Shown here one piece after another: positions 6,150-64,000 of a stretch of DNA of 64,000 nt; positions within the stretch are counted from its first letter, which is position 1; every line of letters starts with the position of its first letter. The notes under the pieces are model-generated. The model worked only from the letters and a program-made list of their open reading frames with translations, had not been told where the DNA came from and searched no databases. The DNA comes from Schizochytrium sp. TIO01 (taxonomy: Eukaryota; Sar; Bigyra; Thraustochytrida; Thraustochytriidae): assembly GCA_004764695.1 (NCBI GenBank), contig SMSO01000007.1, positions 1,743,270-1,807,269 of the forward strand, written 5' to 3'. A program made the translations under genes and the position numbers.

Positions 6150-8033
6150 ATGGATCAGCGGCAGGTTAGCCTTGTGAACCGTGTGAAGGTTCCATTTAAA
6201 GGTAGCCTGCTCCCTGGAGCGTGCGTGCTCGGCGATGTTGATGATGACGGTGACCAGGAGCTAGTCGCGGGAAATTGTGATGGCAAGCTGTACGTGTACA
6301 AACATGGCACCCTGCGAGGAACTCGCGAGAGCCTGGGGACAATTGTGTCCGTGTTTGTATCTCGCACGTTCTTTCCGGCGACGAAGGAGAATAAACCTCA
6401 CATTGTGGTGGTGAATGCGGAAGGTGAATGCCACATCTTGGTGGTACCGCCTCTCCTCGGCGCGAATGAGGATCGCGAGGTGGACATTGAACTGTCCACG
6501 ACATTTGAGATTCCATGGAATGTTTCATGTGCGCAGCTCTTTGATTTCTACGATGATAATGATCGCGATGTATTGGTCATTGCCACGCATGATGGAGGAG
6601 CCGCGAGCGAGACAACCGTATTGGCACTGATAACCTCGAAATCGAATTCGAAGAACTCGTCCATGAAACGACGTTCAGGGGTGAAGTATGGACTACTGGA
6701 TGTATGTGACGAGTGGTGTGTCCCAGGAGTCCCGGCATCTATGTCATATGTGAATTCAGGAAGCACCCACAATGGCGGTGGGAAGCTCATCTTGCTTGGC
6801 CTCCAGTTTGGCGGTTTAGTATCCCTGACTCAGGACGGTAGCGTCTTGCAACATTGCCTTGACAACTCCAGTCGACGACCCATGAAAGCAAAGGATATTG
6901 GCGTTGCCTCCCCGGGCCGTGATGTCTTTTTATCTAGAGATACTGGCACTTCAGGCTTGGGTGTCTCTGGATCTACCAAAGCAAACTCTTCCCTTCTCGT
7001 GAATCGACCCATGGTAGTTCACGGTTTAAAGGCGCCGTACATCACCTCATCCGCAGAGAAACTGGCCACATCTTCTGTGACAGCGACGTCGCTCCCAGAA
7101 AGAACCAACACACCACAAAGCTTTGAGGAGAACTCACGGAGTGGTACACCTGTTGATGAAAAGTCTGTTATTTCAGACCCCTCTGGTATTCTACCTTCGA
7201 ATGGGAGCTACAAAGTCCCAGCTCGCCTTGTTGGGCATCGACGAAGCTTGCGCAAATACCTAAGCTCTCGTAGTGTTAAGTCGGATATCACAGAGGACGA
7301 TCGTGGAGATCTCGCTGTTCTATGTTTCGGAGGACGACTCCGTCTTGAAATGTTTTCGGACGATGGCTCAAAGGACTACGCCACTATTGCAAATCAACTC
7401 ATTTGGCAAGAAGAACACGACCGACAACTTTTTGCTGTACAGTCTTTAGATGTTAACCGTGATGGCGTTACTAATATTATCTCGTGCGCCTGGGATGGTC
7501 TCACATGTATCTATGACTTGGAAAATAATGTTGTCAGATATCAGTTTGAATCACGTGTGCAGGGATTCCTTGCTGGAGAGTACTCCCACGCACCCGGACA
7601 AACCTCTGTTTGCTTCATCTATGTCACTTTTGATAACTCAATTGTTATCTACCATGATGTAAACGAATGTGTTCAGGATATCCCAGCACTTACCCTTATT
7701 GATGTCCTCCGTAGACGTGGTCAGGCAGAGGCTGTTCTCAATACCCTTGATGCTGCATGCGCGCCTGCTGAAAAAGAGAAACTGCTGCAAAAATTGCGTA
7801 ATTTAGATAGCGAAGTTCATCTGGTTGCCTACTTTTCACGTCTTCTACACCAGCGTTTGCACCAGAAAATTTCCTCATTTGCGCCCAAGTCCCCGAAGCC
7901 TAGTCCTCCTTCACCTGCACTTACTAGCGAACCCTCATCCGCAGCATCGTCTTCATCATCATTGCCACCAGTGCCATTACCACACTCTCCCGTCCCAAGT
8001 GACCCTTCTAGCACAAAAGAGACACATAACTAG
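6150..8033 (+). CDS. ITFG2-like FG-GAP/beta-propeller protein (KICSTOR-type subunit)
   Basis: A single-exon 627-residue protein beginning at ATG 6150 in a good context (GACCATGG). The N-terminus (RVKVPFKGSLLPGACVLGDV, then DDDGDQELVAGNCDGKLYVY) closely follows the opening of animal ITFG2, with its GSL-P-A-LGDVD...ELV-G...GK-VYK pattern. FG-GAP-like DxDxDG motifs recur, for example FDFYDDNDRDVLVIATHDG and LDVNRDGVTNIISCAWDG. ITFG2 is a subunit of KICSTOR, which in animals recruits GATOR1 to lysosomes to restrain TORC1 when amino acids are scarce. A Ser-rich insert of ~150 residues (roughly residues 260-390) and a Pro/Ser-rich tail make it longer than the ~450-residue human protein. It is tandem with the zinc-finger/ARM gene 307 bp downstream. 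Family assignment is confident; the role in this organism is inference. Confidence 0.85.
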   Translation: MDQRQVSLVNRVKVPFKGSLLPGACVLGDVDDDGDQELVAGNCDGKLYVYKHGTLRGTRESLGTIVSVFVSRTFFPATKENKPHIVVVNAEGECHILVVPPLLGANEDREVDIELSTTFEIPWNVSCAQLFDFYDDNDRDVLVIATHDGGAASETTVLALITSKSNSKNSSMKRRSGVKYGLLDVCDEWCVPGVPASMSYVNSGSTHNGGGKLILLGLQFGGLVSLTQDGSVLQHCLDNSSRRPMKAKDIGVASPGRDVFLSRDTGTSGLGVSGSTKANSSLLVNRPMVVHGLKAPYITSSAEKLATSSVTATSLPERTNTPQSFEENSRSGTPVDEKSVISDPSGILPSNGSYKVPARLVGHRRSLRKYLSSRSVKSDITEDDRGDLAVLCFGGRLRLEMFSDDGSKDYATIANQLIWQEEHDRQLFAVQSLDVNRDGVTNIISCAWDGLTCIYDLENNVVRYQFESRVQGFLAGEYSHAPGQTSVCFIYVTFDNSIVIYHDVNECVQDIPALTLIDVLRRRGQAEAVLNTLDAACAPAEKEKLLQKLRNLDSEVHLVAYFSRLLHQRLHQKISSFAPKSPKPSPPSPALTSEPSSAASSSSSLPPVPLPHSPVPSDPSSTKETHN

Positions 8034-10140: not shown

Positions 10141-13100
10141 CTAAATGACAGTAAAAGTTGTCCACAAGTCTGCATACGATGAGTCAAGAAGCAAGGGTGT
10201 ATCACCAGGTGCAGCGCCCAAAAATATGCAACGTCTCTGGTCGATCAGTGACTCCTCATAGCTTGTTACTGTTGCATTAGACTCCACCATACAAATAAAC
10301 TCATCTTCCGTAAAATATATATGAACTGCGCTATCAACACTTTGAGTTGAGCTAGTCACCTCTTGTAACATGAACTGCTCATATTCATCGAAATACACAA
10401 CATAAGACACATTGGTTCCATTCGAGGAAGGAATAGTTGCCTCAAGCTGGTTCAAAACATTGTTGAAAACAAAGAATTGACTATCGTCAGTCTCGTCACA
10501 CATATTGGAAATAAGCATACTGCGATACACGTTGGCCTCCAAGCAAATGTATTCACCCTTGATGCGAAGTGGGAATCGATTGCAGTCCACATTATAACAA
10601 TTGTAAACCAAACTGCTGCCTGTACCACAAGGGCAACCATTCTCTTCAAGAGTCTCATTGAGTGAAGGGAAATTGCTGCCAAGTGTGCAATCATCAGAGT
10701 ACTGTGCAATTGTAATTGGTCGAATCTGTCGATACATCTGTAGTTTTTCAAAATTGAGAACAATCTTCCAACTACTGGATGGTGGGACTTCGCTGTCTGA
10801 CAGGGCTACTGCAGTAGCATAATAGCCCGTGCTAGGTATTAAATCGGAATCAATATACCAAGCTTGGCTTGCATCGTCCTTGTACAGATGGATTTGTTCA
10901 TCTGCAGCTAAATACAAAGTATCCAGCATTGTATACCATGCTGCAGCGGACTTACTCGATGACCGCTTTTGGTATACTGTATAGTCATAAGCAGCATTTA
11001 TAGTTTGCGTAGTTAGACCTCCACACGAGTGAATACTAGTATGAAAACGACATTTCTTCTGTGTTTCTTGGGTATTTGAGTTTACATACTCGACGTACAG
11101 AACATCATCACAGTCATCTACCTCATCACATAGATCCATGCAAATTTGTGGACTGATCTCATCAGATGTTTCGTCTACAGTGATATACCAAACCTTTTTA
11201 CCAGTAGTAGGGTTCGTCACATAGGTTCTGCAATCAGAGTCAACTGCAATAAAATAACCAGGATACGCTCTGTAACCCGTCGTTGACGCATATCGTTTAA
11301 CGTATACACCATTCATGCCTGGAGTAGTTATACCATCTGAACGGGATGTCAACGTTTGTAAACCACTCACGCGCATGTATGTGCAGTTTCCTGTTGCTGG
11401 ACAGGATTCTGACATTGCAGTGAGCTCGCCACGCCATTGAAAATAACGAGGAGATGGAAACTCATGAACCTGGGGAGTACCTAAACTGGCATCTATGCAA
11501 AACGACCTATAGAAGGTTCCCGAAGCAGATGCGACCCCATCCTCATATTCATGACCGTCTAAATAGTTGATCGTATCCGTTGGGTCTGCAAGTTCAAATG
11601 TTTGCGATAAGCCACTGGTCGTGTAGACTTTAATGACGACGCCTGATTCTTCCAACGGGTCTACACCGCTTTGCAGGATTAATAACTCTTCAGCCGTCGT
11701 TCCGTTCGCCCAAAGTTCATACATATCGCGGTAGTCAATTGAATATTCAGATGAACAGTGATAATCTAAGGCTCCGCATTTCGTGTTCGGTCCACAGCAC
11801 GGTGAATCAATAGGGCAGGTAGCTAACTGGCCATCTTCGCTAAGATAGTCGGGTCGATTGCAATAGTTATCATCACGCGTTTGAGACATCCATGTATCGT
11901 TAAGAAAGCGACGATAATCGATGGAGTAGCGTGACTTACAAAAGGTGTTGCTTAGTCCACAAATTCCCATCGTTAAATGGCAACATGGACGTAGGTCTGT
12001 TTGTCCATCAGACCATGTTACCGCTACCGGAGGACACTGAGCTGCTTCACCGCTTGACAATGGATAGTTTGGTCCACAACGTGCATCATCGCGATGCTTC
12101 TTGTATGAGCTTGATGTGACTGGTTTAGTCCGCGAAACAAAGAACTTATAGACTGTGGAGCGAAATTGCGAAAAGTAGACCACTTGCATAGCTTTCCCGT
12201 TGCTTTGTAGGACATCGTCAGAACGTATGAGCTTTGCTCCACTGCAGCTGCAGGCATCATCAGAAAGCATTTTGCTACTGACCCTGCATGAATCTCCCTC
12301 TTCGCTCGCTTCAAACTCCACCGACATATCCACCTGGAGAGAAGTTGCTTCGAAGGCAACTAATAAGGTCCCCTCTTCTAAAACTCGCGCGACGTTGACG
12401 TCGAGCTCGGTGGTTCCATTCACAGTGAACATTTTGACTCGTGTGTGAAATTCTGAAGCACCAATAACTTGCACAGCTGTTGCACTATACCCAAGCGATG
12501 TTGCAGCAAGACCCGATTTATATGACACTACTAAAGTATACGCACCAGCTTCTAGATCAGGCAAAGAAAATGTGGAGTTTGATATTGCAACTTTTGTCAA
12601 CGAGGTTGTGACGTTGACATCACTTGAGCAGGAAGTTAGACCAGCTGGACTTACATCTATCAATGTTGAAGTTCCAAGAACTACAGCTTGTACATCTGCA
12701 TCACCGGAGTAAATTGGCTCAACGTTTTCATATGCAGGTACGGTGCCTCGGTACAAGTTTAGGGTTGCCTCCACTCCAAGACCTGCTTGGATATCAATAA
12801 TATTACCGGTTACACCATAGGTTGGTTCTGCCAAGCTTGATGATGAACCTGCCAGATCAGATGGAGTAAAGTATAGTTCATCTGCGACACAAATACTGAA
12901 CGAAAATTCGGATACGACAGGTGTCTTGCGACCAGCTACACCACAATACGACTTCGCCCACTTGTTTTGGTACTTTTGAATGTACTCAGAGGTACCTTGT
13001 TCGAGTGGCCTTGCATCTCGTGGAAAACCTACATCATCATCATAGTTTGCATAGTTCCAGCGATTCGTCTTGTTTGCCATATCAACTTCTGTAGGATAGA

Positions 13101-16100
13101 TTGCAAAGTTCTGATTGATCAGATGGGTCTTGTTGAGGCTTGACCAGTTGTCAAGCATCATAGAATATGCATCGAATGAGTCTGGCACTTCCTCATCTAA
13201 AAGTTCATAATATAGGTACGGGTCTCCAGCTATGTCGTATCGCCACTTGCGCCCAAGTTCGAAAAGTGCATTGATGATATATTCACCGAGGTTATATGTC
13301 ACGCGACAGTCTTTCTGATGAAAAACTGTTGTCCATGAGCCGTCAGGACAAGCTGCAGCACTTGAAGTTGTACCGTCATCTTCATACTCGCACAGATAAG
13401 GGTTTGATTCGCATGCATTATCTTGAGAGCAAATCGTAAGAAAGACCTCATACTCACCACCAGTAAGGCTTGCAATAGCTTCACTGGGCACACATTTTCG
13501 TGTAGGTGCTGTCGTAGGTCGTGTTGTGGGCTGCATACTGCAATCATAACCAATATAGCCACTATTACAATAACACGCACCCAGGTAAGGGCACTCTGCT
13601 GCAGCATATTTATCTGCATCGCAACAAATACCATTGTCGGAGCATGTTCTAGAATCTGGACATATGTTGACCTCCGCATTTTCAGAGCATGGTAACGTTT
13701 CTAAATAACTTGATGATGCAAGTTTGAGTCCCGCTAATGCATTTTGGATTGCAATAACTTTGGCATTGTACTTTTCTGCATAAATATTCTCCACTCTCAC
13801 TTCAACTGTATAAGTTCCCGAGCTGGAAATGAGCGTCGGAGCTGATATAGTAGAAAGATCAGCCCAACATGCCCCAGAGGTAGAGCGTAGTCGCGTCACA
13901 AGAGGATGGGTACCTGCGGCTACCTGAAATTTCGGAGATGCGGCAGCTCTGTCTAACAAATAGCCGTCACTAAGACCAACAATTGAAATACTCATCGTAA
14001 TATTGTAAACGTCATCCAATGCCAAAACCTCATCCACGGTGCATGTAGATACTTCACTAATAAGGGTACCACACCTTGCAGTAATTAGTGTTTCTTTCAG
14101 TTTTGATAGTTTGATTGTGCCACAATCAGCCAAACTTGTAACATCTATGGAAAATACTTCGGTCCATGCAGCTCGGAACTGTGAAAGACTCGCAAAGCTC
14201 GAATCACCAGTCTCACTCTTTGAAACTCTTTGCACGAGGCTTTGGATTGCATCATAGGCATCCTCCATCCATGTAAATTTGCAGCTCTCAAATGAAAACT
14301 CTGCAAATGGCTCGCGATACGTGGTAGGTCGAATCGTTGGGTACAATGTTGGGGCATGGGTCGGCGAAACTGTAGGCGATCTCGTAGGTGATGCGGTTGG
14401 GTCTAAAGTGGGGCTTAAAGTTGGGGAGTTTGTGGGACTCAACGTTGGAAACTCCGTTGGATATAGTGTCGGTGACAAAGTTGGTTGTGATGATGGGCTC
14501 AACGTTGGAAACTGGGTTGGCGCATTAGTAGGAGCATCCGTAGGAGTATTGGTTGGAGCATCTGTAGGGGCACTGGTTGGAGCATCTGTAGGAGCATTGG
14601 TTGGGAAATTGGTTGGAGATGATGTCGGCGATTCTGTAGGCGCATCTGTGGGATTCAATGTTGGAGCATTTGTTGGTGCGTCTGTAGGACTTTGTGTCGG
14701 CGCATCTGTTGGTGCGTCTGTAGGACTTTGTGTTGGAGCATTGGTCGGGAACAGAGTCGGGCTTTGCGTTGGAGTATCCGTTGGTGCGACTGTAGGAGTC
14801 AGTGTTGGGGCTTCTGTAGGGGAGGAAGTTGGTTTTTGCGTTGGAGGCGTAGGACTTTGAGTTGGATATAGGCTCGGCGATTGAGTTGGGGCTTCTGTTG
14901 GGTCTGTTGGTGCAGCAGTAGGGCTGACTGTTGGTGAATCGGTTGGTTTCAATGTTGGGCTCAAAGTTGGAGCCATAGTAGGGCTTTGAGTCGGAGCTAA
15001 AGTTGGAAACTTTGTTGGAAACTTTGTCGGGAGCATCGTTGGGTTGAGTGTGGGCGACAATGTAGGAAAGCTAGTAGGGTTAGGTGTGATCGTATTATCA
15101 CACGCCATATATTCCAGATACTGAGCACATGAAAGAGTATTTTCGATACAGTAACCCGTAACAGGGTTTTTACACAACCTTGTTGCTGTAGCCAGTAAGG
15201 AGGAAGCATAAGTTTTGCAACCACAAGGATTGAGATTTGCAGGCGCAAGACTTATATCATCTAACTCTACAATACCACCGGGCTCCATGTTAAAGGCATG
15301 GCCTTTACTTGTTGTGTAGTCATCATGGGTGATCGCCATTCCAAAATGATATTCAGAATCTGAATCTTGGGAAACAAACTCTGGGATACTAATTTCAAAG
15401 TAGCCATCAGAATCAGTGCTCTCAACTTGACTAGTGTCTGCTGCAGAGGTTCCAACACAAGAAGTCGTTGCGACTCCTTCTGTCTCATACCAAGTGCAAC
15501 ACGGGCTTGTGCAAGAACCATAAACACCACTATACTGGGTGCAGTCATCGGTACAGTCTTCATATGAAGAAGCGTTTGCGGACAAAGCACAGTCACCAGT
15601 GCGGATACTCCATAACCGTACCACAGCACCTTCAACCGGCTCTCCATTTGTACTAAGAACTCGACCACTAATTAGAGTGCTGCTAGCGACCCGAAAGGTA
15701 GCAACAGAAACGCTGGAATAGATGAGGAAGTACGAGGAGCAGTCTGTGGAGTCCGTACGTGTAATTGTAATTCCATCCTCATGGTCCGGGCTGCAATTTG
15801 TAGGATAAATTCGAACATCCGGAGCATAAGAGCCCCAGCCGCGCGTGACGATAAGTGTTTGTTTGTCGTACAAGGTTGCATTTGCTCCATTATCAGCTTC
15901 GATGACGAACCTATTTCCATCTTCGACGCGAAATATGGATTGTAGTGTACATAACATCTCCCAGGGTTCAGTAAGACTTGAAACATCAGTTCGACCCGCG
16001 ACAACATTAGAGGCTGAAGCTAATCGTCTGTGTTCATATCTTAAAGACCTGCGGCGGGTTGATTCATCATCGCTTGACTCTTCAACATCCTCATCTTCTG

Positions 16101-19100
16101 ATGAGCTTGTTGATGATGAAGATGTTGCGCGACTTTGTGGTAAGGGAATAGCAACCTGCGTATAGATTGTGGACAAAGATGCGCCATAGGTGAATGTAGC
16201 ACTGGGGTCATATTCAACAGTTAGCTTGACATAAGGCTGGCAGGTGTTTACATCGGGGATGTAAATCTCACTTAGGATATCAGTCACATTATAATAGTCT
16301 GCAGCAGCTAGAGCTGCATCAAGCTCCACCTGAGTCCAGCAAAAAGCGTCATCAATGCAGTCTGACGTAGAGAGACAGCTTGCGTCGTAGTCGCAACGAG
16401 TAGCGCATACTATACCTCCACAATCTACGTCTGTCTCATTGCCATCTACAATATTATTTTCGCAAGAAACGCACGTGCCACTTAAGCAAAGATTACTGTC
16501 ACAATCGCGGTCTAGTTCACAGCTAAGACCATCATCGCATGTAAGTCCAATAGTTGTGCACAGATTTCCGCCACAGTCAATATCAGTCTCTGTTTCACTG
16601 ACTTCTCCATCCGAGCAAACCTCTACGATATAGTTATATGCAGCGCTACTGCCTAAAATATCTGCGTCAAGGTCGGCATCTGCTATAGAATACACTGTTT
16701 CACAAACTCCAGCTGAACAAGTACCTGTTGAGCAGCTTGCTGAACATCTTTGAGTTTGACAGTCGTACATTTGTTCGCAGCCTTTTCCTACGCGACAACG
16801 CCTTGAACAAACTTGGCCTCCACAATCAATCCCAGTTTCATCCCCGTCTTGGATACCGTTTGAGCATGAGACACAGATACCTAAGGTCTCGTGGCAGACT
16901 CCACTTGAGCATTGTGATGGTGATGTGCATGTACTCCCATCAAGACAACGTCCGTTATCGTCGGCAGTTATGTTTGCACCAGCAGCTGAGACATTCGAGG
17001 GCTTATCATAAGGGTAATGACGATAGTAGTCAACGCACTGCGCAGAGCCACAATCTACATCACCTTCATCGCCATTACGTATACCATCTTGGCAACTAAT
17101 GCAAGTTCCATTGGAGCATGTCTGAGAGAGACAGTCAGCATCATTCGTACACGCAGCACCAAGGGGGCATAGAAAGGCATCACTGTCATTATATGAGTTG
17201 TAGGATGTATTTCCATTTACAGCGGAATAGAGGTATGATCTGCATTGGCCGCCACCACAGTCGATTGATGTCTCTGATCCATCTCGAATACCATTGGTGC
17301 ATTGTTCCACAAACGTTTCTTCACGGCAGAGACGTGTTTCTTCATTGCAATGTGAGGAAGAGCAGTCTGAGTCTTCAGTACATTTTCGTCCCAGCGCGCA
17401 ACGTGCGGCACAACCCCCGTTGTTAGAGTCCCCTCCACAATCAATGTCTGTCTCATTGCCATCACGTAAACCGTTAGAACAGGATTGAACATCTGCAGAT
17501 GTTGCGATGGGGGTTTTATTAACTGCATATGTATCTTTGTCGAGAGAAGCAATAATCTCAGAGGGAGAGATACGTTGTGTTCCAGTTGACACTGAGACGC
17601 CAATGATGATAATTGCAGCAAGCAGCAGAAGTAGAATAAGAGTAATCAAAATTCGAGCTCGATGCTTGCTCAAGCGTTTGACACGCTCCGTCTGGCGAAA
17701 ACGGTGGCGGATTAGCCATATATCAGAACGGAGGGCAATGGCTAGGCACAAGATTAGCATGACAAGTCCAAAAATCAAAATTGACATGAGCTGGGTAATC
17801 CCGTTAGAAAGTAGCTGACAGCATGAGAAATTGAGACATCCTTCAGGGTTGTAATTCACTGTGCTGTTGCTACTATTGGTCACGCCTGCCGTAGGGTCGT
17901 AAAATTCCCATGCAAATGCAACTTGGCTCTTGTTTTGGCAATTTGCTGAATCTCCGATACCTGATGTGGAGTAGACATATTGGGAGGTAGTTGTATTGTA
18001 CACCTCTACCTGTGCTCCCATTGCTGTTCCACCATACTTTGTGCAGCTTACCGTGGACTGCCACCATTCGTATGACATAATTTGGAGGACAGACCTGCAG
18101 CTACCTAGGATGGCAGAATTAACGTCTGCTACTAGGAGACCAATCATCAGGGATAAGATCGCAATAATTAGAATGATCATGGAGACTGCATGTGCTTTAA
18201 GTAAAGGAACATGCTCAATCATTGCAGCGCCGAACCCTACGACACTAAGAATGATTAGAACTAAGCACAATGTAAGAAAAAGATAAAGCGCTGCTAAAAG
18301 GGGCTTGCTATTGACAGCGTCATCGTCTAAGACCTGCGCATAGTTCAGTAAGGAGAAACTCAGACGAAGTCCTACGATCCCAAGTGTCACAAGGATAAGG
18401 GAGAAGCTTTCCAAAAAGCTCTGTGCCATTTCATAGATAGTCACAATCATGATAGTAGGTCTTAAGGAAATGAGTGTTAGCAAACAAACCAGAATGCTCA
18501 CACCAGATGAAATTCTCGCATAGTATTCTGTGTTACCATAGACATTGGCGGTAAGAATTGAGTTGTCGTCGAACAATGTAATAATACTGATTGGAAGAAT
18601 AACAAGATTCAAAGTGAACGCAAGGTGAAAATATACTTGAAGCAAGTATTGTCCAGGAGTCTCGATGCCATCATCATCTAGCTCCAGATCCTCACGAACA
18701 CGAATGGCTCCATATGCGCCCACGAGAGAAGAAAAAAGCATAATTGCTCCACAAAACATCATTACCTTTCCTACCGGCGAGCTGATTTCCTCGTCTACGC
18801 TAGCATTCGCTGACTGCAGTCCACACCAAATCAATACAACCGATGTGAGCCCTATTAGAGCAAGATTGCTGACGAGGTTTGCATGCGTCCATTTTTCTTG
18901 TACATGCTTGCGTGCCTCAACAAGAGGAGTTGATCCCTTGAGGTAAGCATTGCGAAACTCTGTTTGGGCCACGCTAAGGCGTTTGGCAGCTTCTCGAGGC
19001 ACCTGCTTCCCAATCCCCTGCAGAAACTCTTGAATAGCATCATCGTCGGCATCATTATCCTGCCTTTTTGTCGTCTCAATGACCTTGGCGGCCTTAACTT

Positions 19101-19125
19101 TCGGTGGCTCAGGGCCAACCTTCAT
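10141..19125 (-). CDS. Giant multi-pass cell-surface protein with Cys-rich repeats, Pro-Thr stalk and lectin-like modules
   Basis: A single uninterrupted exon of 2,994 codons. The first ATG is at 19125; the frame runs to an upstream stop at 19233 without another ATG. Order: a basic cytosolic N-terminus; nine hydrophobic segments (about residues 78-512), the loop before segment eight being Cys-rich like a tetraspanin large loop; six Cys repeats of the form C-x-N/D-G-x2-DG-x-E-T-D-I-D-C-G-G (about 549-910); an acidic Ser-rich patch followed by basic pairs (about 996-1035); a carboxypeptidase-regulatory/Cna-B-like beta domain (about 1150-1250); a Pro-Thr stalk with x-P-T every three to four residues (about 1346-1602); an EGF-like module (about 1822-1865); a second beta-sandwich (about 2100-2200); two chitin-binding-like Cys modules sharing YSIDYR (about 2347-2465); and a PAN/apple-like module (about 2628-2705). 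Nine spans from a cytosolic N-terminus would place the ~2,480-residue C-terminal part outside the cell. Adhesion or wall/scale attachment is inferred. Confidence 0.85.
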   Translation of the reverse strand: MKVGPEPPKVKAAKVIETTKRQDNDADDDAIQEFLQGIGKQVPREAAKRLSVAQTEFRNAYLKGSTPLVEARKHVQEKWTHANLVSNLALIGLTSVVLIWCGLQSANASVDEEISSPVGKVMMFCGAIMLFSSLVGAYGAIRVREDLELDDDGIETPGQYLLQVYFHLAFTLNLVILPISIITLFDDNSILTANVYGNTEYYARISSGVSILVCLLTLISLRPTIMIVTIYEMAQSFLESFSLILVTLGIVGLRLSFSLLNYAQVLDDDAVNSKPLLAALYLFLTLCLVLIILSVVGFGAAMIEHVPLLKAHAVSMIILIIAILSLMIGLLVADVNSAILGSCRSVLQIMSYEWWQSTVSCTKYGGTAMGAQVEVYNTTTSQYVYSTSGIGDSANCQNKSQVAFAWEFYDPTAGVTNSSNSTVNYNPEGCLNFSCCQLLSNGITQLMSILIFGLVMLILCLAIALRSDIWLIRHRFRQTERVKRLSKHRARILITLILLLLLAAIIIIGVSVSTGTQRISPSEIIASLDKDTYAVNKTPIATSADVQSCSNGLRDGNETDIDCGGDSNNGGCAARCALGRKCTEDSDCSSSHCNEETRLCREETFVEQCTNGIRDGSETSIDCGGGQCRSYLYSAVNGNTSYNSYNDSDAFLCPLGAACTNDADCLSQTCSNGTCISCQDGIRNGDEGDVDCGSAQCVDYYRHYPYDKPSNVSAAGANITADDNGRCLDGSTCTSPSQCSSGVCHETLGICVSCSNGIQDGDETGIDCGGQVCSRRCRVGKGCEQMYDCQTQRCSASCSTGTCSAGVCETVYSIADADLDADILGSSAAYNYIVEVCSDGEVSETETDIDCGGNLCTTIGLTCDDGLSCELDRDCDSNLCLSGTCVSCENNIVDGNETDVDCGGIVCATRCDYDASCLSTSDCIDDAFCWTQVELDAALAAADYYNVTDILSEIYIPDVNTCQPYVKLTVEYDPSATFTYGASLSTIYTQVAIPLPQSRATSSSSTSSSEDEDVEESSDDESTRRRSLRYEHRRLASASNVVAGRTDVSSLTEPWEMLCTLQSIFRVEDGNRFVIEADNGANATLYDKQTLIVTRGWGSYAPDVRIYPTNCSPDHEDGITITRTDSTDCSSYFLIYSSVSVATFRVASSTLISGRVLSTNGEPVEGAVVRLWSIRTGDCALSANASSYEDCTDDCTQYSGVYGSCTSPCCTWYETEGVATTSCVGTSAADTSQVESTDSDGYFEISIPEFVSQDSDSEYHFGMAITHDDYTTSKGHAFNMEPGGIVELDDISLAPANLNPCGCKTYASSLLATATRLCKNPVTGYCIENTLSCAQYLEYMACDNTITPNPTSFPTLSPTLNPTMLPTKFPTKFPTLAPTQSPTMAPTLSPTLKPTDSPTVSPTAAPTDPTEAPTQSPSLYPTQSPTPPTQKPTSSPTEAPTLTPTVAPTDTPTQSPTLFPTNAPTQSPTDAPTDAPTQSPTDAPTNAPTLNPTDAPTESPTSSPTNFPTNAPTDAPTSAPTDAPTNTPTDAPTNAPTQFPTLSPSSQPTLSPTLYPTEFPTLSPTNSPTLSPTLDPTASPTRSPTVSPTHAPTLYPTIRPTTYREPFAEFSFESCKFTWMEDAYDAIQSLVQRVSKSETGDSSFASLSQFRAAWTEVFSIDVTSLADCGTIKLSKLKETLITARCGTLISEVSTCTVDEVLALDDVYNITMSISIVGLSDGYLLDRAAASPKFQVAAGTHPLVTRLRSTSGACWADLSTISAPTLISSSGTYTVEVRVENIYAEKYNAKVIAIQNALAGLKLASSSYLETLPCSENAEVNICPDSRTCSDNGICCDADKYAAAECPYLGACYCNSGYIGYDCSMQPTTRPTTAPTRKCVPSEAIASLTGGEYEVFLTICSQDNACESNPYLCEYEDDGTTSSAAACPDGSWTTVFHQKDCRVTYNLGEYIINALFELGRKWRYDIAGDPYLYYELLDEEVPDSFDAYSMMLDNWSSLNKTHLINQNFAIYPTEVDMANKTNRWNYANYDDDVGFPRDARPLEQGTSEYIQKYQNKWAKSYCGVAGRKTPVVSEFSFSICVADELYFTPSDLAGSSSSLAEPTYGVTGNIIDIQAGLGVEATLNLYRGTVPAYENVEPIYSGDADVQAVVLGTSTLIDVSPAGLTSCSSDVNVTTSLTKVAISNSTFSLPDLEAGAYTLVVSYKSGLAATSLGYSATAVQVIGASEFHTRVKMFTVNGTTELDVNVARVLEEGTLLVAFEATSLQVDMSVEFEASEEGDSCRVSSKMLSDDACSCSGAKLIRSDDVLQSNGKAMQVVYFSQFRSTVYKFFVSRTKPVTSSSYKKHRDDARCGPNYPLSSGEAAQCPPVAVTWSDGQTDLRPCCHLTMGICGLSNTFCKSRYSIDYRRFLNDTWMSQTRDDNYCNRPDYLSEDGQLATCPIDSPCCGPNTKCGALDYHCSSEYSIDYRDMYELWANGTTAEELLILQSGVDPLEESGVVIKVYTTSGLSQTFELADPTDTINYLDGHEYEDGVASASGTFYRSFCIDASLGTPQVHEFPSPRYFQWRGELTAMSESCPATGNCTYMRVSGLQTLTSRSDGITTPGMNGVYVKRYASTTGYRAYPGYFIAVDSDCRTYVTNPTTGKKVWYITVDETSDEISPQICMDLCDEVDDCDDVLYVEYVNSNTQETQKKCRFHTSIHSCGGLTTQTINAAYDYTVYQKRSSSKSAAAWYTMLDTLYLAADEQIHLYKDDASQAWYIDSDLIPSTGYYATAVALSDSEVPPSSSWKIVLNFEKLQMYRQIRPITIAQYSDDCTLGSNFPSLNETLEENGCPCGTGSSLVYNCYNVDCNRFPLRIKGEYICLEANVYRSMLISNMCDETDDSQFFVFNNVLNQLEATIPSSNGTNVSYVVYFDEYEQFMLQEVTSSTQSVDSAVHIYFTEDEFICMVESNATVTSYEESLIDQRRCIFLGAAPGDTPLLLDSSYADLWTTFTVI
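14322..15090 (-). repeat. Pro-Thr stalk-coding tandem repeat inside the giant gene
   Basis: About 770 bp of degenerate 12-nt repeats encode the units APTD, SPTx, TPTx, FPTx and similar, read on the minus strand. The other strand shows an open frame of VGASVGAL-type repeats, which is a shadow of this array and not a gene. Repeat units diverge at third positions, which suggests old, selected repeats and not a fresh expansion, although several units (GCATCTGTAGGAGCATTGGT-like) are nearly identical and could still recombine. Confidence 0.9.
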
Positions 19126-20993
19126 CTGAATACAGCTTTCTTTGAGACGTAGACCAAAAAGGATATGGGGCCAATGCCTGGCCTGCCCGACAGCGCGCGG
19201 AGCTTTAGTCAAAAGGTTTTGGCCGGCAAACTAAGATTTTCTAATCCCTAAATATCAGCAATCAATGCTTTTCAATGCTTCACTATGCTGCAAACAGCAT
19301 AGAATCTCTACATGCGCTGAGCTCGGTCTATGCTAAGGTTTCTGTACTTTATTTGCCAAGGCGTCAAGGAACTTGGTCTCTTCTTCAGTTCCCAATAGCT
19401 TTCACTCGTAAAAACGCAGCCTTTTCAGACCTGGCTGCTTGCAGTCCCAGGTTTAGACGCCGAAAGATCAGACTAGGGACAGTCTGAGCTGGCTGGAGTA
19501 GAGAGTCTTTTCTGATTGCACTAATGTAACCCATGTAGACTGATGCAATCTCGCCAAGGAATACAAAGCATACTTTTTGTCCCAGATGAACCGTTGAGAG
19601 CCCTCTACTTTATTATCGTGCACGATATTGATTTCACAAAAAGAAAAAAGAAAAAAGACAAAGACAAAGAAAAAGAAAACAACTTCTGCGGACAATATGA
19701 AGGGCGCTTGATAGTGAGTAGAAGGGTTTGTGCGAGATTTATGAGGCAGTTCGGGACACTCAGGGATTCCAAGGCCGAAATCAGTGCATGTCCTGAGAAG
19801 TTGCCGAATCTGGTAGTAAACTTATATGCGTTATTGTGCACGGAGGTCTGGTTCATCTCCGGTTCAGAAGGGAAGGGAGGCATTGCTGAGTGCTGCTTGA
19901 TCGCTTGGCAGGAAGGGGGTTAGTTGGTTCGTTCAACGGTTGAGCTAAGCAAATGTCTAGGCACTACTAGCTAGTGCTAATTTACCTCCTAATCGACAAA
20001 GGGCTCTGAGAACCATTAAGTGGAGTTCTTCTCTTGCCTTCGCAAGATTGCATCTGGGGCACTGAGGAAGACGGTTAGTTATTTAGGCTGAAAGAAGTAA
20101 AACCCGGATGAATCACGATTACAATATCGGCGTTCATGACGAAATCTAATCTAGCGTTGTTCATGTTGGTCAGGGCGCCACTTTACTGCGTTGAAATAGA
20201 TTAGGTTAGCGTGACTTCTCATAAAAGGGAACCAAATAGACTTCCACTCGACGAAGTCTAACTAAGAGGATGGAAGGATCCTTTGTTACCAAATTTGAGC
20301 GTTTTGAGGGGTGTTTGTTTTGTATCCAGAGATAAGATGATGGAATTATGAAAGGTATAGGCATATTTCTGAAGTGGGTTAAAATAGCCATGAACCTTTC
20401 CGCCCCCCTCAGTTTTCGTGATGTTAATTTCTCAGGTCCAGGGTGAATAAATATGTTTCATATTCATGAGTGTGTTGACTCATGAAAAAGAAAAGACCCT
20501 ATGGAATGTTGTAAACATTAAAAATGAACCTTTACAGGGGGTTCTTGAAAGAAAGTTAATCAGTGTTTTCTCAGTACACAAAATAGATCCCTGACAGGCA
20601 TCTATGGATGACAGAAACTGATGAGGAAACGGCTCTACGAAAGCCCATTCTCTCAATCATGATTATGGCTCAGGTTTGTCTTCTTATCAAGAACCAGTTC
20701 ATTTTGAGGTACAATGTAAAAAACGCAGTACTCTTGCTAATTAGAAACAGTCCATAGCAATCTTCTACTTTATTTGAAAAATTCAAGTCAAAGCAAGTGG
20801 TTAAGTCTGCAAACGAAAATTAAGCGCATTCAATAGTAAATCTAAATTTGGTGCAGTAAGTAAGAATAAATTTGAAAATTCAGGAGAAATGTCGAACATA
20901 AAAATTAGAGGTCAGGAAATGAATCAATACAAGGACATAGAACCAGTTGGCGAATACGCCTACAAAATATGCGAAAAGTTCCTTTGTCACACA
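19126..20993. other. Intergenic region upstream of the giant gene
   Basis: 1.9 kb between two minus-strand genes. It should contain the promoter of the giant gene (right of 19125) and the 3' end of the START-like gene (left of 20994). An A-rich AAAAAG/AAAGAC tract lies at 19637-19680. No coding or RNA gene was recognised. Confidence 0.55.
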
Positions 20994-30325: not shown

Positions 30326-33300
30326 TTAGGTGGGCGAAAACGGGAGATTGAGCGCCCCGGCAGCCCAGTTAACCCCGAAAGAGTCATCAGTCTTGGGGCC
30401 AGGACCAAGACCGTCAAAGTCACTCTCAAGCATTGAAAGCGTAAGGGATGCCATGCCACGGTCAAGATTGCCTCCTTCAAAATTATCCCAAGTAGGCATG
30501 GGACCAATGGGCGAAGGAGAAACCAAAGCATTGCCAGGAGCAGTGCGAGCACCACCTTGGCGCCTTTGGCCCTGAGAGAAGGGATGTCCCGAGGCGTGCT
30601 GTTTCTGACCAGAGTTTGAAGGAGTGTCACAACTCATCTGTTGACCATGACGAGGTGTCTGCAGCATGTGCTGGAGGCGTTGGTGTTGATGGTGTGTGTA
30701 CTTGGCCTGTTGCTGCTGCTGGTGATGTTGTTGCTGCTGCTGTTGCTGCATCACATACCGCTGAGAAGGTGTCGTCGCAAGCTGGTTAGCATGTTTTGTC
30801 GAACCAGGTTGCAGAAACAAATCCGTGTCAAGACCAAGGCTTGCAAAATCTGCCTGCGAAAAGTCAAGATTCAGGTCACTGCCATTAAAGTCCCACTGCA
30901 AGGGACCGATTGGAGAAGCTGCTGAGCTCATGGGTTGAGTGAATTGCATATCCAAAGGAGGAACAACTATTGGGATGGTAGTATTACTACTCTGCTGTCG
31001 CTGGTATTGACTCTGGGATGAGTACTGCTGGTGTTGTTGAGAGTTGCTACCATAGTTCCCATAGTGTTGTTGGTGGTACATTTGATCATGCATTTCAGCC
31101 TCGGCGGCAGCTTGATCTGCGGCAGCCTTCTTCTTAGATTGACGTGGCTTGCGAGGCTTAGCAGGGCCATCCTTTTTGGGAGCACGTGGTTTACGTGGTT
31201 TAGTGGCCTTCTTTGTTTTGATGGATGTCTCGTCAAGGTTAATGAGAGCCATGTCGTCCATGGTGAGTGAAAAGTCGGTACCCATGGGACACGGTGCAAT
31301 TGGGTTCATGTTTGCTGCGAGAATAGAGGCGCTTACAGCAGGTTCTGCCTTCTTCTTGGTAGGCTTGCGAGGCTTGCGAGTTACAGGAGCCGTAGTGCTT
31401 GTAACAGTCAGCATTGGGTCTGAGTAAGAGCCAGCAAAAGTAGTCATCTGGGCACTCTGTATTACCTTGGGCTTACGGGAAGCTGTGTTCTGGGATGACG
31501 ATGAAGTTGTGCTCATCATAGATGAAGATGACGATTTTTTCGCCTCAGAAATGGGTCTCGGGATAGAAATTTCACTTGCAGATGACTGGGCCGACCCATT
31601 GCCAGATCCTATCGAATGCGAAGCAACAGGGGCCGAAGATAAGCTTGCTACCGACATTGACGGAGTGGACGCAGACGAGATCATGTTGCTCTGTGACATT
31701 AGAATAGTCCTTGCTGTAGAGGCTTGCTGGTGCTGGTGAAGGTGTACCGGTTCCTGATGCTGGTGCTGGTGCTGGTGTTGGTGTTGGTGCTGATGCTGGT
31801 GCTGAGACTGGTGCTGATGCTGGTGCTGGTGCTTGTGTTGATGCTGATGTTGATGCTGATGAGGCATTTGCATGTGTGAATGAGAGGCTTGTTGCTGTTG
31901 CTGTTGCTGTTGTTGTTGCTGTTGCTGTTGTTGCTGCTGAGAATGATGAGAAGTTGCCGGCTTTTTCTTTACAACAGGAACAAGGGCTGGCAATGGAAGT
32001 GTGCTCGAGGCCTTAGAAGGCTGCGGCTCGATAGGTTTTCCCTTGTTGTCTGTGACGGTGAGCCCAAGTTTGAGCTGCCATTTACGGCGAATAGCAGAGT
32101 TCCAACGATTTTTGACTGCATTCTCAGGGCGACCTGGAAGAAGCTTGGCGATTTCGCACCAACGGTTGCCATATGTTGCTTGAGCAGTCACAAGAACCTT
32201 TTCTTCATCCTCTGTCCATGTTGAGTGGTCAATGGTGGGATCGAGGTGGTTAAACCAGCGTTCGCGACATTGTTTACCGATGCGTCCAGGAATTCGCTCC
32301 GCAATCTCAGACCACTTGGTAATCTTACGGTCAATACAGGCACGAATCATATTGTCTTCCTCTTCAGTCCAAGGACCCTTCACAAGGCCGGGTCTCAAGA
32401 CCTTTTGCCACCGGTGCAAACATTGTACATCAGACCTTCTGCCACCAAGATATTCTTCACTGATTTTTTTCCACTTGGTTGCGCCAATAGCGGTAACTCC
32501 TTCCCGAAGCTTCGCGTCCTCCTCGCGGGTCCAGCGACCTCCGCCTCCCAATCGCGGCTCATCGCTTTCGGACTTCATTCCCATAGCATTCATAGAACTA
32601 CTCGAGGACGAGGAAGCACTCATAGGCCTTCCCGACGACTGCTGTTGTTGTTGTTGTTGTTGCTGCTGCTGCTGTTGTTGTTGCTGTTGAGGCTTCGCCA
32701 TAGGCATAGGAAACGCATTAGCCTTCTTCACAGGTTGAGATGGTGCACCAAATGAATTGGTGTTTGCATTATGCATATTTTCGCTGTTGTTGATGGACGC
32801 AACCATGTGCGAGTGTGTATGCGCATGCGAATGCGTATGGATCCTATGAACATGGTGGCCTGTCTGTGTTGCCACACCGTAGCCCATGTTTTTATCATTC
32901 ATGCTCATGCTGGAGTTACTCGTAGCTTGGGAATTGTTGTTATTGTTGCTGTTTGAACTACTGATGTTGGCCGTGAGGGTACCAGTGGAGCTAACTGAGA
33001 TATCGCTATCATGAGTGTTGTTAATGTTGCCGCTTGAGCTCTGGTTATCATTTGAATGTGGCTCCTGCTTGGAGTTCTTGGACGCAGGAATCTGAATCAA
33101 GGCAGGGGTATCTGTCAACTTCATATGCTGAGCAACTTGTTGACGTAAAAGTTCATGGTGGGGCATCTGCGTGCGATGGAGAGGCGAAGGTTGAAGGTTC
33201 TGACGCTTAGCATTGATGTTTTTCGTGAAGGCGAAGCTAGCCAATCCGGCTGGCGAGAAGGCTGGCGAAGGAGGCTCATCGCGCTTTGTCACTAACGCAC

Positions 33301-33328
33301 GTGGTGAAGGGTCCGGGCGGCGATGCAT
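30326..33328 (-). CDS. Three-repeat (R1R2R3) MYB transcription factor
   Basis: A 1,000-residue single-exon protein with its ATG at 33328. Three consecutive MYB repeats lie at about residues 262-415: RWTREEDAKL..., PWTEEEDNMI... and TWTEDEEKVL..., each with regularly spaced tryptophans (the third W of R3 is in NRWNSAIRRKW). R2 and R3 carry the conserved recognition helices GKQCRERWFNHL and ENAVKNRWN, which in animal c-MYB and plant 3R-MYBs read the AACNG core. Outside this region the protein is disordered. It has polyQ tracts near residues 213-230 and 461-482, a His-Gln run (about 490-530), basic PRKPRAPKK-type segments (about 670-750) that may be AT-hook-like or nuclear signals, and an acidic or hydrophobic C-terminus that may activate transcription. 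3R-MYBs commonly regulate G2/M genes; that role is inferred. It diverges from the acyl-CoA dehydrogenase gene. Confidence 0.93.
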   Translation of the reverse strand: MHRRPDPSPRALVTKRDEPPSPAFSPAGLASFAFTKNINAKRQNLQPSPLHRTQMPHHELLRQQVAQHMKLTDTPALIQIPASKNSKQEPHSNDNQSSSGNINNTHDSDISVSSTGTLTANISSSNSNNNNNSQATSNSSMSMNDKNMGYGVATQTGHHVHRIHTHSHAHTHSHMVASINNSENMHNANTNSFGAPSQPVKKANAFPMPMAKPQQQQQQQQQQQQQQQQQSSGRPMSASSSSSSSMNAMGMKSESDEPRLGGGGRWTREEDAKLREGVTAIGATKWKKISEEYLGGRRSDVQCLHRWQKVLRPGLVKGPWTEEEDNMIRACIDRKITKWSEIAERIPGRIGKQCRERWFNHLDPTIDHSTWTEDEEKVLVTAQATYGNRWCEIAKLLPGRPENAVKNRWNSAIRRKWQLKLGLTVTDNKGKPIEPQPSKASSTLPLPALVPVVKKKPATSHHSQQQQQQQQQQQQQQQQQASHSHMQMPHQHQHQHQHKHQHQHQHQSQHQHQHQHQHQHQHQHQEPVHLHQHQQASTARTILMSQSNMISSASTPSMSVASLSSAPVASHSIGSGNGSAQSSASEISIPRPISEAKKSSSSSMMSTTSSSSQNTASRKPKVIQSAQMTTFAGSYSDPMLTVTSTTAPVTRKPRKPTKKKAEPAVSASILAANMNPIAPCPMGTDFSLTMDDMALINLDETSIKTKKATKPRKPRAPKKDGPAKPRKPRQSKKKAAADQAAAEAEMHDQMYHQQHYGNYGSNSQQHQQYSSQSQYQRQQSSNTTIPIVVPPLDMQFTQPMSSAASPIGPLQWDFNGSDLNLDFSQADFASLGLDTDLFLQPGSTKHANQLATTPSQRYVMQQQQQQQHHQQQQQAKYTHHQHQRLQHMLQTPRHGQQMSCDTPSNSGQKQHASGHPFSQGQRRQGGARTAPGNALVSPSPIGPMPTWDNFEGGNLDRGMASLTLSMLESDFDGLGPGPKTDDSFGVNWAAGALNLPFSPT

Positions 33329-63094: not shown

Positions 63095-64000
63095 TTAGCT
63101 GGAGTACATGAAGACAGGGTTGTCAATGGTCATGACACGGTCCTCCTCTTCGCAATGCTGGCGAATCTCCTTGGGGAGGCCAGTGAGACCACGGAAGGCC
63201 GTACCATCGAGGAAGCGCATGCCCTTCATGCCGCCCTTGATGCGCTTCTCAATCTCCTGGTTAAACTCATCAACGTCACGGTTGAGAGCGGCCTTCTTGG
63301 CCTCAGCAGCGTCACCCTCAGCAGCAAAGGCAAGGTTGAAGCCCCAGTTGCAGCCGAAGGAGGGCACGTCAACAGCGTACGGGATGACGACATCGAAGGC
63401 AGATCTCAGGGTGCTGTGGATGACAGTGAAGCACTCCTCCTTAGCGTTGTAGACGGCTCCGGGACCAGACTGAGTCACGAAGATACCACCGGGGTTAAGC
63501 TTGGTCTGAACAAAGTTGTAGAACTCGTTGGTGTACAGCTTGTAGCCAGGGCCAGCCTCGATCGGGTCGCAGATATCCATGATAACAATGTCAAAGGTCT
63601 CGTCAGTGTCCTCAAGCCACTGCTTAGCGTCCTGGTAGAAGACTTCGAAGCGGGAATCCTCGTAAGCACCACCGTTCCACTCGGGGAGCTGCTCGCGGCA
63701 GATATCACAGGCAACCTCATCAATATCAACCATGACACAGCGTTCGACACTCTCGTGGCGCAGGACCTCGCGGGCGGTGGCGAACTCACCACCACCACCG
63801 ATGAAGACCTTCTTGGGGTTCTTGTGCAAGAGCATGGCAGGGTGCACGAGGGACTCGTGGTAGATGTGCTCGTCAGCCTCAGCGCTCTGCGTCTGGCCGT
63901 CCATAACAAGGGTGCGTCCGAACTGGTTGGTGCGAATGACCTGAACACGCTGGAATGAAGACCGGGCATCAAAGCTAATTTCCTGAAGGGCGAGCTCCAC
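63095..64000 (-). CDS. Thermospermine/spermidine synthase-like aminopropyltransferase (5' end outside window)
   Basis: The visible 301 residues include almost the full catalytic part; the frame runs off the right edge, so the start is not seen. It transfers aminopropyl from decarboxylated S-adenosylmethionine to a polyamine. Visible motifs are DGQTQSAEADEHIYHESLVHP, the Rossmann loop GGGGEFATAREVLRH, the acidic VDID that binds the adenosine ribose, the catalytic-loop DICDPIE followed by GPGYKLYT, and GGIFVTQSG. SAE-DE-IYHESLVHP and DPIE-GP-YKLYT are the wording of plant ACL5 thermospermine synthases, as opposed to classical spermidine synthases (which have ERDEFSYQEM). So thermospermine synthesis from spermidine is the better guess. 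About 20-40 N-terminal residues are likely missing. Confidence 0.9.
   Translation of the reverse strand: MELALQEISFDARSSFQRVQVIRTNQFGRTLVMDGQTQSAEADEHIYHESLVHPAMLLHKNPKKVFIGGGGEFATAREVLRHESVERCVMVDIDEVACDICREQLPEWNGGAYEDSRFEVFYQDAKQWLEDTDETFDIVIMDICDPIEAGPGYKLYTNEFYNFVQTKLNPGGIFVTQSGPGAVYNAKEECFTVIHSTLRSAFDVVIPYAVDVPSFGCNWGFNLAFAAEGDAAEAKKAALNRDVDEFNQEIEKRIKGGMKGMRFLDGTAFRGLTGLPKEIRQHCEEEDRVMTIDNPVFMYSS

Follow-up and report, generated by a model that had tools for sequence, protein, structure and literature searches.

The genome of Schizochytrium sp. TIO01 contains at least five genes with a common nine-span, tetraspanin-like anchor, and together they suggest an undescribed family of attachment proteins. 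The window, by which we mean the whole stretch of 64,000 nucleotides that was analysed, carries one of these genes. From sequence comparison, we read this gene and its four or more relatives as coding for very large attachment proteins of the cell surface, and our confidence in this reading is evenly balanced. A literature search by titles and abstract starts, with subscription journals and preprints mostly outside its scope, brought up no description of such a protein, and a search on tetraspanins in thraustochytrids found nothing relevant.

The open frame and the nine-span anchor

The gene occupies 10141..19125 on the minus strand as one frame that runs from ATG to stop over 2,994 aa, in agreement with the original prediction, in which the term "single-exon" means an open frame in genomic DNA. 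No further ATG lies upstream in this frame, which is open as far as a TTG at 19212. At local composition, a stop-free frame of such length has a log10 P of about -72, and the remaining five frames contain 107 to 227 stops over 10141-19125. A scan for bacterial-type promoters upstream returned two sites (0.7 expected), a result that is uninformative for a eukaryote. Among the other genes, an Itfg2-like protein (PF15907, 3.1e-33) is encoded near the giant gene at window positions 6150-8033 (plus), and a three-repeat Myb protein with long poly-Gln and His-Gln stretches at 30326-33328 (minus), while a spermidine synthase frame (PF01564) and an overlapping antisense frame of about equal length lie at 63095-63904 (minus) and 63155-63958 (plus). 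A match to a PfaA-type omega-3 synthase above the family cut-off is consistent with a thraustochytrid origin of the DNA.

The anchor, common to the five genes, spans residues 81-515 (17581..18885, minus strand). A script that located the hydrophobic ranges between residues 81 and 519 found nine peaks, the number of membrane spans that had been predicted, and the single range outside the anchor, at 1700-1718, is marginal (KD 1.41). At homologous positions, four of the five family members likewise have nine peaks, whereas L011 has ten, two adjacent ones of which are read as one long segment. The first four spans, TM1-TM4 (residues 86-229; 18439..18870, minus strand), include a conserved DGxxTPGQ-type loop that is probably cytosolic. 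The next four, TM5-TM8 (residues 237-465; 17731..18417, minus strand), enclose the large TM7-TM8 loop (residues 338-440; 17806..18114, minus strand), which contains six Cys residues (343, 361, 396, 430, 435, and 436) and five of the six N-glycosylation sequons of the anchor. TM9 (residues 488-513; 17587..17664, minus strand) follows a basic loop with eight Lys/Arg and two acidic residues and would place the approximately 2,480 C-terminal residues outside. With the N-terminus inside, we infer from hydropathy and charge, the basis of this topology, that the part beyond TM9 is outside the cell, and both the odd number of spans and the external C-terminal part had been anticipated.

A family of at least five genes

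The genome that we searched comprises 64.06 Mb in 37 contigs. The Pfam Tetraspanin model (PF00335; curated cut-off 32.1 bits) identified ten places in it, nine above the cut-off and a tenth, on C35, below it; the window gene was not among the matches of this genome-wide search, in which the family was represented by the C35 relative alone. The C35 gene (L011:1939-5253) encodes 1,104 aa with a nine-span start like that of the window protein (23% identity over 470 columns, E 3e-11), and its DCGG repeat is single and its Pro-Thr stretch short. With L011 as the query, ten matches were obtained, of which five were via the anchor (L011 itself, the window gene, C34:4114453, C13:1563014, and C13:4400418) and five covered its DCGG/Pro-Thr stretch only, while the window anchor as the query returned, up to E 0.1, just the five anchor genes. 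These match counts, like the family size of at least five genes, are lower bounds. Four paralogs with a common anchor rule out that the window protein is an orphan, and viral carriage of the anchor was rejected because a search of viral contigs with the anchor alignment gave 78 pattern stretches and no confirmed relative.

In all five members, DCGG-type repeats directly follow the last span. Two members are co-linear with the window protein well beyond this point. L022 (C13:1563014; 2,902 aa) aligns with window residues 1-970 (33%), 1562-2627 (25%), and 1898-2788 (27%), and the C34 relative (L023) with residues 15-969 (45%), 1055-1359 (39%), and 1585-2994 (41%). The C34 relative is spread over two overlapping frames, and its last two aligned pieces sit in the second, which has 3,016 codons. 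At the junction (L023/L033, near 4117350), any of 25 canonical GT-AG introns could join the frames without a stop, and two of these, 41 and 146 nt long, have a GTAAG donor; besides an intron, an error in the assembly or a gene that is broken may account for the frame change. In the three co-linear members, the alignments give the order Cys repeats, RXL linker, beta module, Pro-Thr stalk, EGF-like module, and chitin-binding-like pair. Because the same module order is found in two genes on other contigs, the window frame is best read as one gene, as had been proposed.

The anchor, the DCGG repeats, and the Pro-Thr stretches are also present in the other two members, L024 (C13:4400418; 3,317 aa) and L011, which diverge beyond them, L024 with a kringle (3.2e-11) and a fibronectin II (fn2) domain, both above cut-off, and L011 with an Ig-like stretch (E 0.0021, below cut-off). 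Concanavalin-like stretches are present in the C34 relative (Laminin_G_3 1.9e-5, below cut-off). The post-stalk part as the query had four matches, namely the three co-linear genes and a weak one on C36 at 0.002.

A candidate processing site in the linker

Between the Cys repeats and the ectodomain lies a linker (window residues 970-1055) in which the relatives do not align, and inside it all three co-linear members contain an RXL/RRL cluster, with two RXL tripeptides in the window protein, two in L022, and three in L023. In the window protein, the cluster is basic and forms a candidate processing site at residues 1023-1036 (16018..16059, minus strand). RXL occurs over the whole ectodomain at a frequency near chance (7 versus 5.9 expected), and the argument is therefore one of place and not of number; moreover, because the three co-linear genes have a common ancestry, the cluster is closer to one observation than to three. 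In diatom silaffins, an RRL ends a domain that is removed by an unknown protease, and Sin1 may also lose its RXL domain (PMC5525289). The window protein resembles these proteins in having an RRL-type tripeptide that can be linked to proteolysis in a stramenopile; in Sin1, however, the RRL closes a stretch of 30 residues behind the signal peptide (PMC5525289), whereas the window protein, which has several spans, carries its RXL cluster beyond residue 1022. A cut in the linker of the window protein is possible.

If such a cut occurs, the protein could be a precursor whose secreted product helps to build the wall or net; the anchor would be a secretory carrier, and RXL cleavage would free the stalk and tip for scales, wall, or ectoplasmic net. 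The position of the cluster in all three co-linear members, within a linker that is otherwise unaligned, and the RXL domains that are removed from silaffins and may be lacking from Sin1 speak for a precursor of this kind. However, the two RXL sites of L011 are in a different context, L024 has no RXL between the Cys repeats and the stalk, with one far downstream at 2718, and a nine-span anchor that is retained in five genes would be an elaborate carrier. We therefore regard a secreted precursor as a minor, though real, possibility.

Resemblance of the anchor to tetraspanins

The original prediction pointed to a tetraspanin-like Cys loop inside the anchor; our comparisons support it and extend the likeness over the whole of TM5-TM8 and, more weakly, over TM1-TM4. 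The Tetraspanin score is 25.1 bits for the whole window protein and 27.3 bits (E 3.6e-6) for residues 1-530, both below the cut-off, and the match of residues 1-530 falls in two stretches. When the anchor is cut, the two pieces match separately, residues 70-240, with TM1-TM4, at E 3.4e-4 and residues 225-530 at E 1.2e-3; the Pfam stretch over TM5-TM8 covers residues 238-463. None of eight reversed or shuffled controls matched Tetraspanin. However, one of the eight matched another family at 0.0027, and single E values near 1e-3 are therefore weak; the cut anchor pieces also match DUF3611 (0.001) and SpoIIM (0.0047). Across the family, the Pfam model matches four of the five members at E 1 or better (best E 1e-4). 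In hhalign comparisons with a profile of nine tetraspanins from the same genome, TM5-TM8 reached 95.9% (reversed 23.5%) and TM1-TM4 60% (reversed 11%).

Controls were also run for each half in each member, with the reservation that the five members are mutually related and are not independent tests of tetraspanin likeness. The bacterial controls were 102 four-span segments from a six-frame reading of 80 loci, their status as genes unchecked; for each half, none of the 102 reached the score of the member in four of the five members, the exceptions being half 2 of L024 (reached by 6 of 102) and half 1 of L011 (11 of 102). Similarly, no more than one of 150 local shuffles reached the real score for each half in four of the five members, and the same two halves were the exceptions (L011 half 1, 46 of 150; L024 half 2, 36 of 150). 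For half 2 of the window protein, one local shuffle scored 39.0 against the real 37.4. Of six control segments taken from this genome, the highest reached 24.1, which is about the level of the half-1 values (22.4 to 28.6). The two halves do not resemble each other (pairwise score 45 against a shuffle mean of 36, sd 6; profile probability 0.5%), and a direct tandem duplication was rejected on this ground.

By definition, the large outer loop of a tetraspanin carries a CCG motif. This motif is absent from the loop in all five members, where the residue behind the CC at the loop end is Q, Q, D, S, or V. The anchor is like tetraspanins (PF00335) in the spacing of TM5-TM8, which hydropathy resolves as four spans with a 103-residue loop between the third and the fourth and which is kept in the family, in the large Cys-rich loop before the last of these four spans, and in a GC pair near TM8. 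It is unlike them in that the window protein scores below the family cut-off, lacks the CCG motif, and would have two units plus a ninth span; moreover, where tetraspanins have a cytosolic tail, the window protein is predicted to have an ectodomain of approximately 2,480 residues. On these comparisons the anchor appears tetraspanin-like, and we do not call it a tetraspanin; perhaps it consists of two four-span units plus the ninth span. A separate tetraspanin in the same genome, at G000:C13:4860142-4860900 (L026:822-1925, minus), has a Pro-Thr stalk inserted in its large outer loop and is another join of tetraspanin and stalk.

Alternatively, the anchor might be a transporter, a channel, or some other nine-span fold that is unrelated to tetraspanins and resembles them by convergence, and the protein would then be a sensor or receptor and not an adhesin. 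The scores below the cut-off, the dissimilarity of the two halves, the shuffle that outscored half 2 of the window protein, and a PDB search in which the anchor profile found no tetraspanin at E 10 or better are all in line with such a fold, but the separate matches of both halves, each in four of five members, at scores that none of the 102 bacterial polytopic controls attained, argue against it, and we consider it unlikely. A transporter or channel label for the anchor was rejected, as there was no above-chance match in Pfam, NCBIfam, or PDB.

Modules of the ectodomain

Beyond TM9, the six Cys repeats and the Pro-Thr stalk of the original prediction were both recovered. The six DCGG/DCGS repeats found by script (residues 549-930; 16336..17481, minus strand) start at residues 549, 609, 678, 754, 837, and 888, and the block has no Pfam or NCBIfam match. 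Similar repeats occur in bacteria; at least 429 relatives were confirmed among the 579 pattern stretches listed from prokaryote genomes, and for the best 80 of these, mostly Myxococcota or Deltaproteobacteria by record title, the identity is 29-36% across the greater part of the block, in a comparison over the repeats alone. DCGG is also present in two frames of the same genome with other architectures (5,665 and 1,065 codons), and the repeat is therefore not tied to the nine-span anchor. In the longer of these (G000:C31:667998-684143, minus; L130-L132), the 5,381 codons that were read contain 20 DCGG and one N-terminal hydrophobic segment, with a far end that is Calx-beta-like by eye. The shorter (L133:1846-5043, plus; G000:C31:2834000-2840000) starts with what looks like a signal peptide and continues with a long Pro-Thr stalk, a single DCGG, and several hydrophobic segments, which is the module order of the window protein reversed.

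The start of a carboxypeptidase-regulatory-like module follows at residues 1142-1173 (15607..15702, minus strand; PF13620 E 8e-4, below cut-off). The Pro-Thr stalk comprises 256 residues with 62 PT pairs (residues 1347-1602; 14320..15087, minus strand) and matches the PT-repeat model PF04886 at E 1.9e-23. A Pro-Thr stretch is also found in L027:1001-3262, plus (G000:C13:6496000-6501500), between a part that is sulfatase-like by eye and a Cys-rich tail. The stalk matches chain OCM3 of 9ufe at 1.1e-10, OCM presumably being an Ochromonas mastigoneme protein, but that the window protein forms the base or shaft of zoospore flagellar hairs (mastigonemes) with a multi-span anchor is very improbable, because the match is confined to simple P-x-x-P repeats, for which we reject this link, a Toxoplasma-labelled chain matches the stalk about equally (1.7e-9), and no further module suggests hairs. 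In Chlamydomonas, mastigonemes are reported to have a PKD2 anchor (PMC10846610).

Of the EGF and lectin-like modules that had been predicted, some hold better than others. The EGF-like module (residues 1827-1863; 13537..13647, minus strand) falls short in the window protein itself (E 0.06) and is borne out in the co-linear paralog L022, where EGF_2 scores above the Pfam cut-off (1.2e-5). After a weak second carboxypeptidase-regulatory-like stretch (residues 2185-2202; 12520..12573, minus strand; PF13715 E 0.03), the two chitin-binding-like modules lie at residues 2339-2405 (11911..12111, minus strand) and 2406-2467 (11725..11910, minus strand). In a PDB profile search, module 1 matched the N-terminal part of PGRP3 (4zxm, E 9.9e-6; 4z8i, 1.7e-4), which we take to be the hevein-like chitin-binding domain of an amphioxus protein. 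Module 1 combines the Cys pattern with a profile match to a solved chain, in keeping with a hevein-like, putatively chitin-binding domain; module 2 was assigned by the pattern PCC..CG..HC..SIDYR only. Each co-linear paralog retains all six Cys residues of both modules. The Pfam matches of the window protein include no chitin-binding family. The likeness to PGRP3 is the pattern GRCGPNYP...CC...G.CG...C...DY over approximately 60 residues; unlike PGRP3, the window protein has two copies, in a giant surface protein without a PGRP domain. The presence of a PGRP3-like module in the predicted protein is thus supported, and with it the lectin-like part of the prediction as far as the first copy is concerned, whereas the PAN-like stretch (residues 2658-2684; 11074..11154, minus strand) is not significant, at E 0.12 and a PAN_4 score of 12.8 bits against a cut-off of 27. 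The C-terminal tail (10144..10563, minus strand) resembles a piece of a beta-trefoil lectin by eye only, with no Pfam match to such a lectin.

Discussion

Our results support the surface-adhesin-like order of modules that was first read from the window, and we propose a model for a cell-surface attachment protein on this basis. In this model, TM1-TM4 and TM5-TM8 would be two divergent tetraspanin-like units, and TM9 would flip the chain such that approximately 2,480 residues are outside. The Cys repeats would form a stiff base, and the Pro-Thr stalk, which is probably O-glycosylated, would space the tip away from the cell, where the tip may bind glycans, either those of food particles or those of the cell's own scales or net. 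A cut in the RXL linker, if it occurs, could either leave the ectodomain tethered or set it free. Animal tetraspanins gather separate adhesion receptors sideways; in the protein modelled here, anchor and receptor would instead be one chain. We tentatively speculate, with less confidence than in a role in attachment as such, that a protist lineage fused two tetraspanin-like units to giant adhesion ectodomains and thereby generated at least five anchor-plus-receptor proteins with swapped tips and an RXL site, perhaps for the ectoplasmic net. A role of the window protein in the net is a guess.

Candidate proteins of the net have been proposed in Aurantiochytrium limacinum, where a study names 18 candidates and states that none of them has been tested, and a word search implies that this study does not mention tetraspanins (PMC12221091). 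One of the candidates, the micronemal-protein-like A0A6S8AHQ2, was matched to MIC4, an apple-domain adhesin (PMC12221091). Like the window protein, A0A6S8AHQ2 is a candidate surface adhesin of a thraustochytrid; unlike it, A0A6S8AHQ2 has a predicted signal peptide and is predicted to be extracellular, with no tetraspanin-like anchor reported in the section on these candidates (PMC12221091).

How labyrinthulomycetes attach to food and build the ectoplasmic net is little known at the protein level. The conserved anchor with its varied ectodomains defines a concrete set of putative surface proteins that can be tagged. If the tetraspanin reading is true, these proteins would join covalently what animals keep apart, a tetraspanin and an adhesion receptor.
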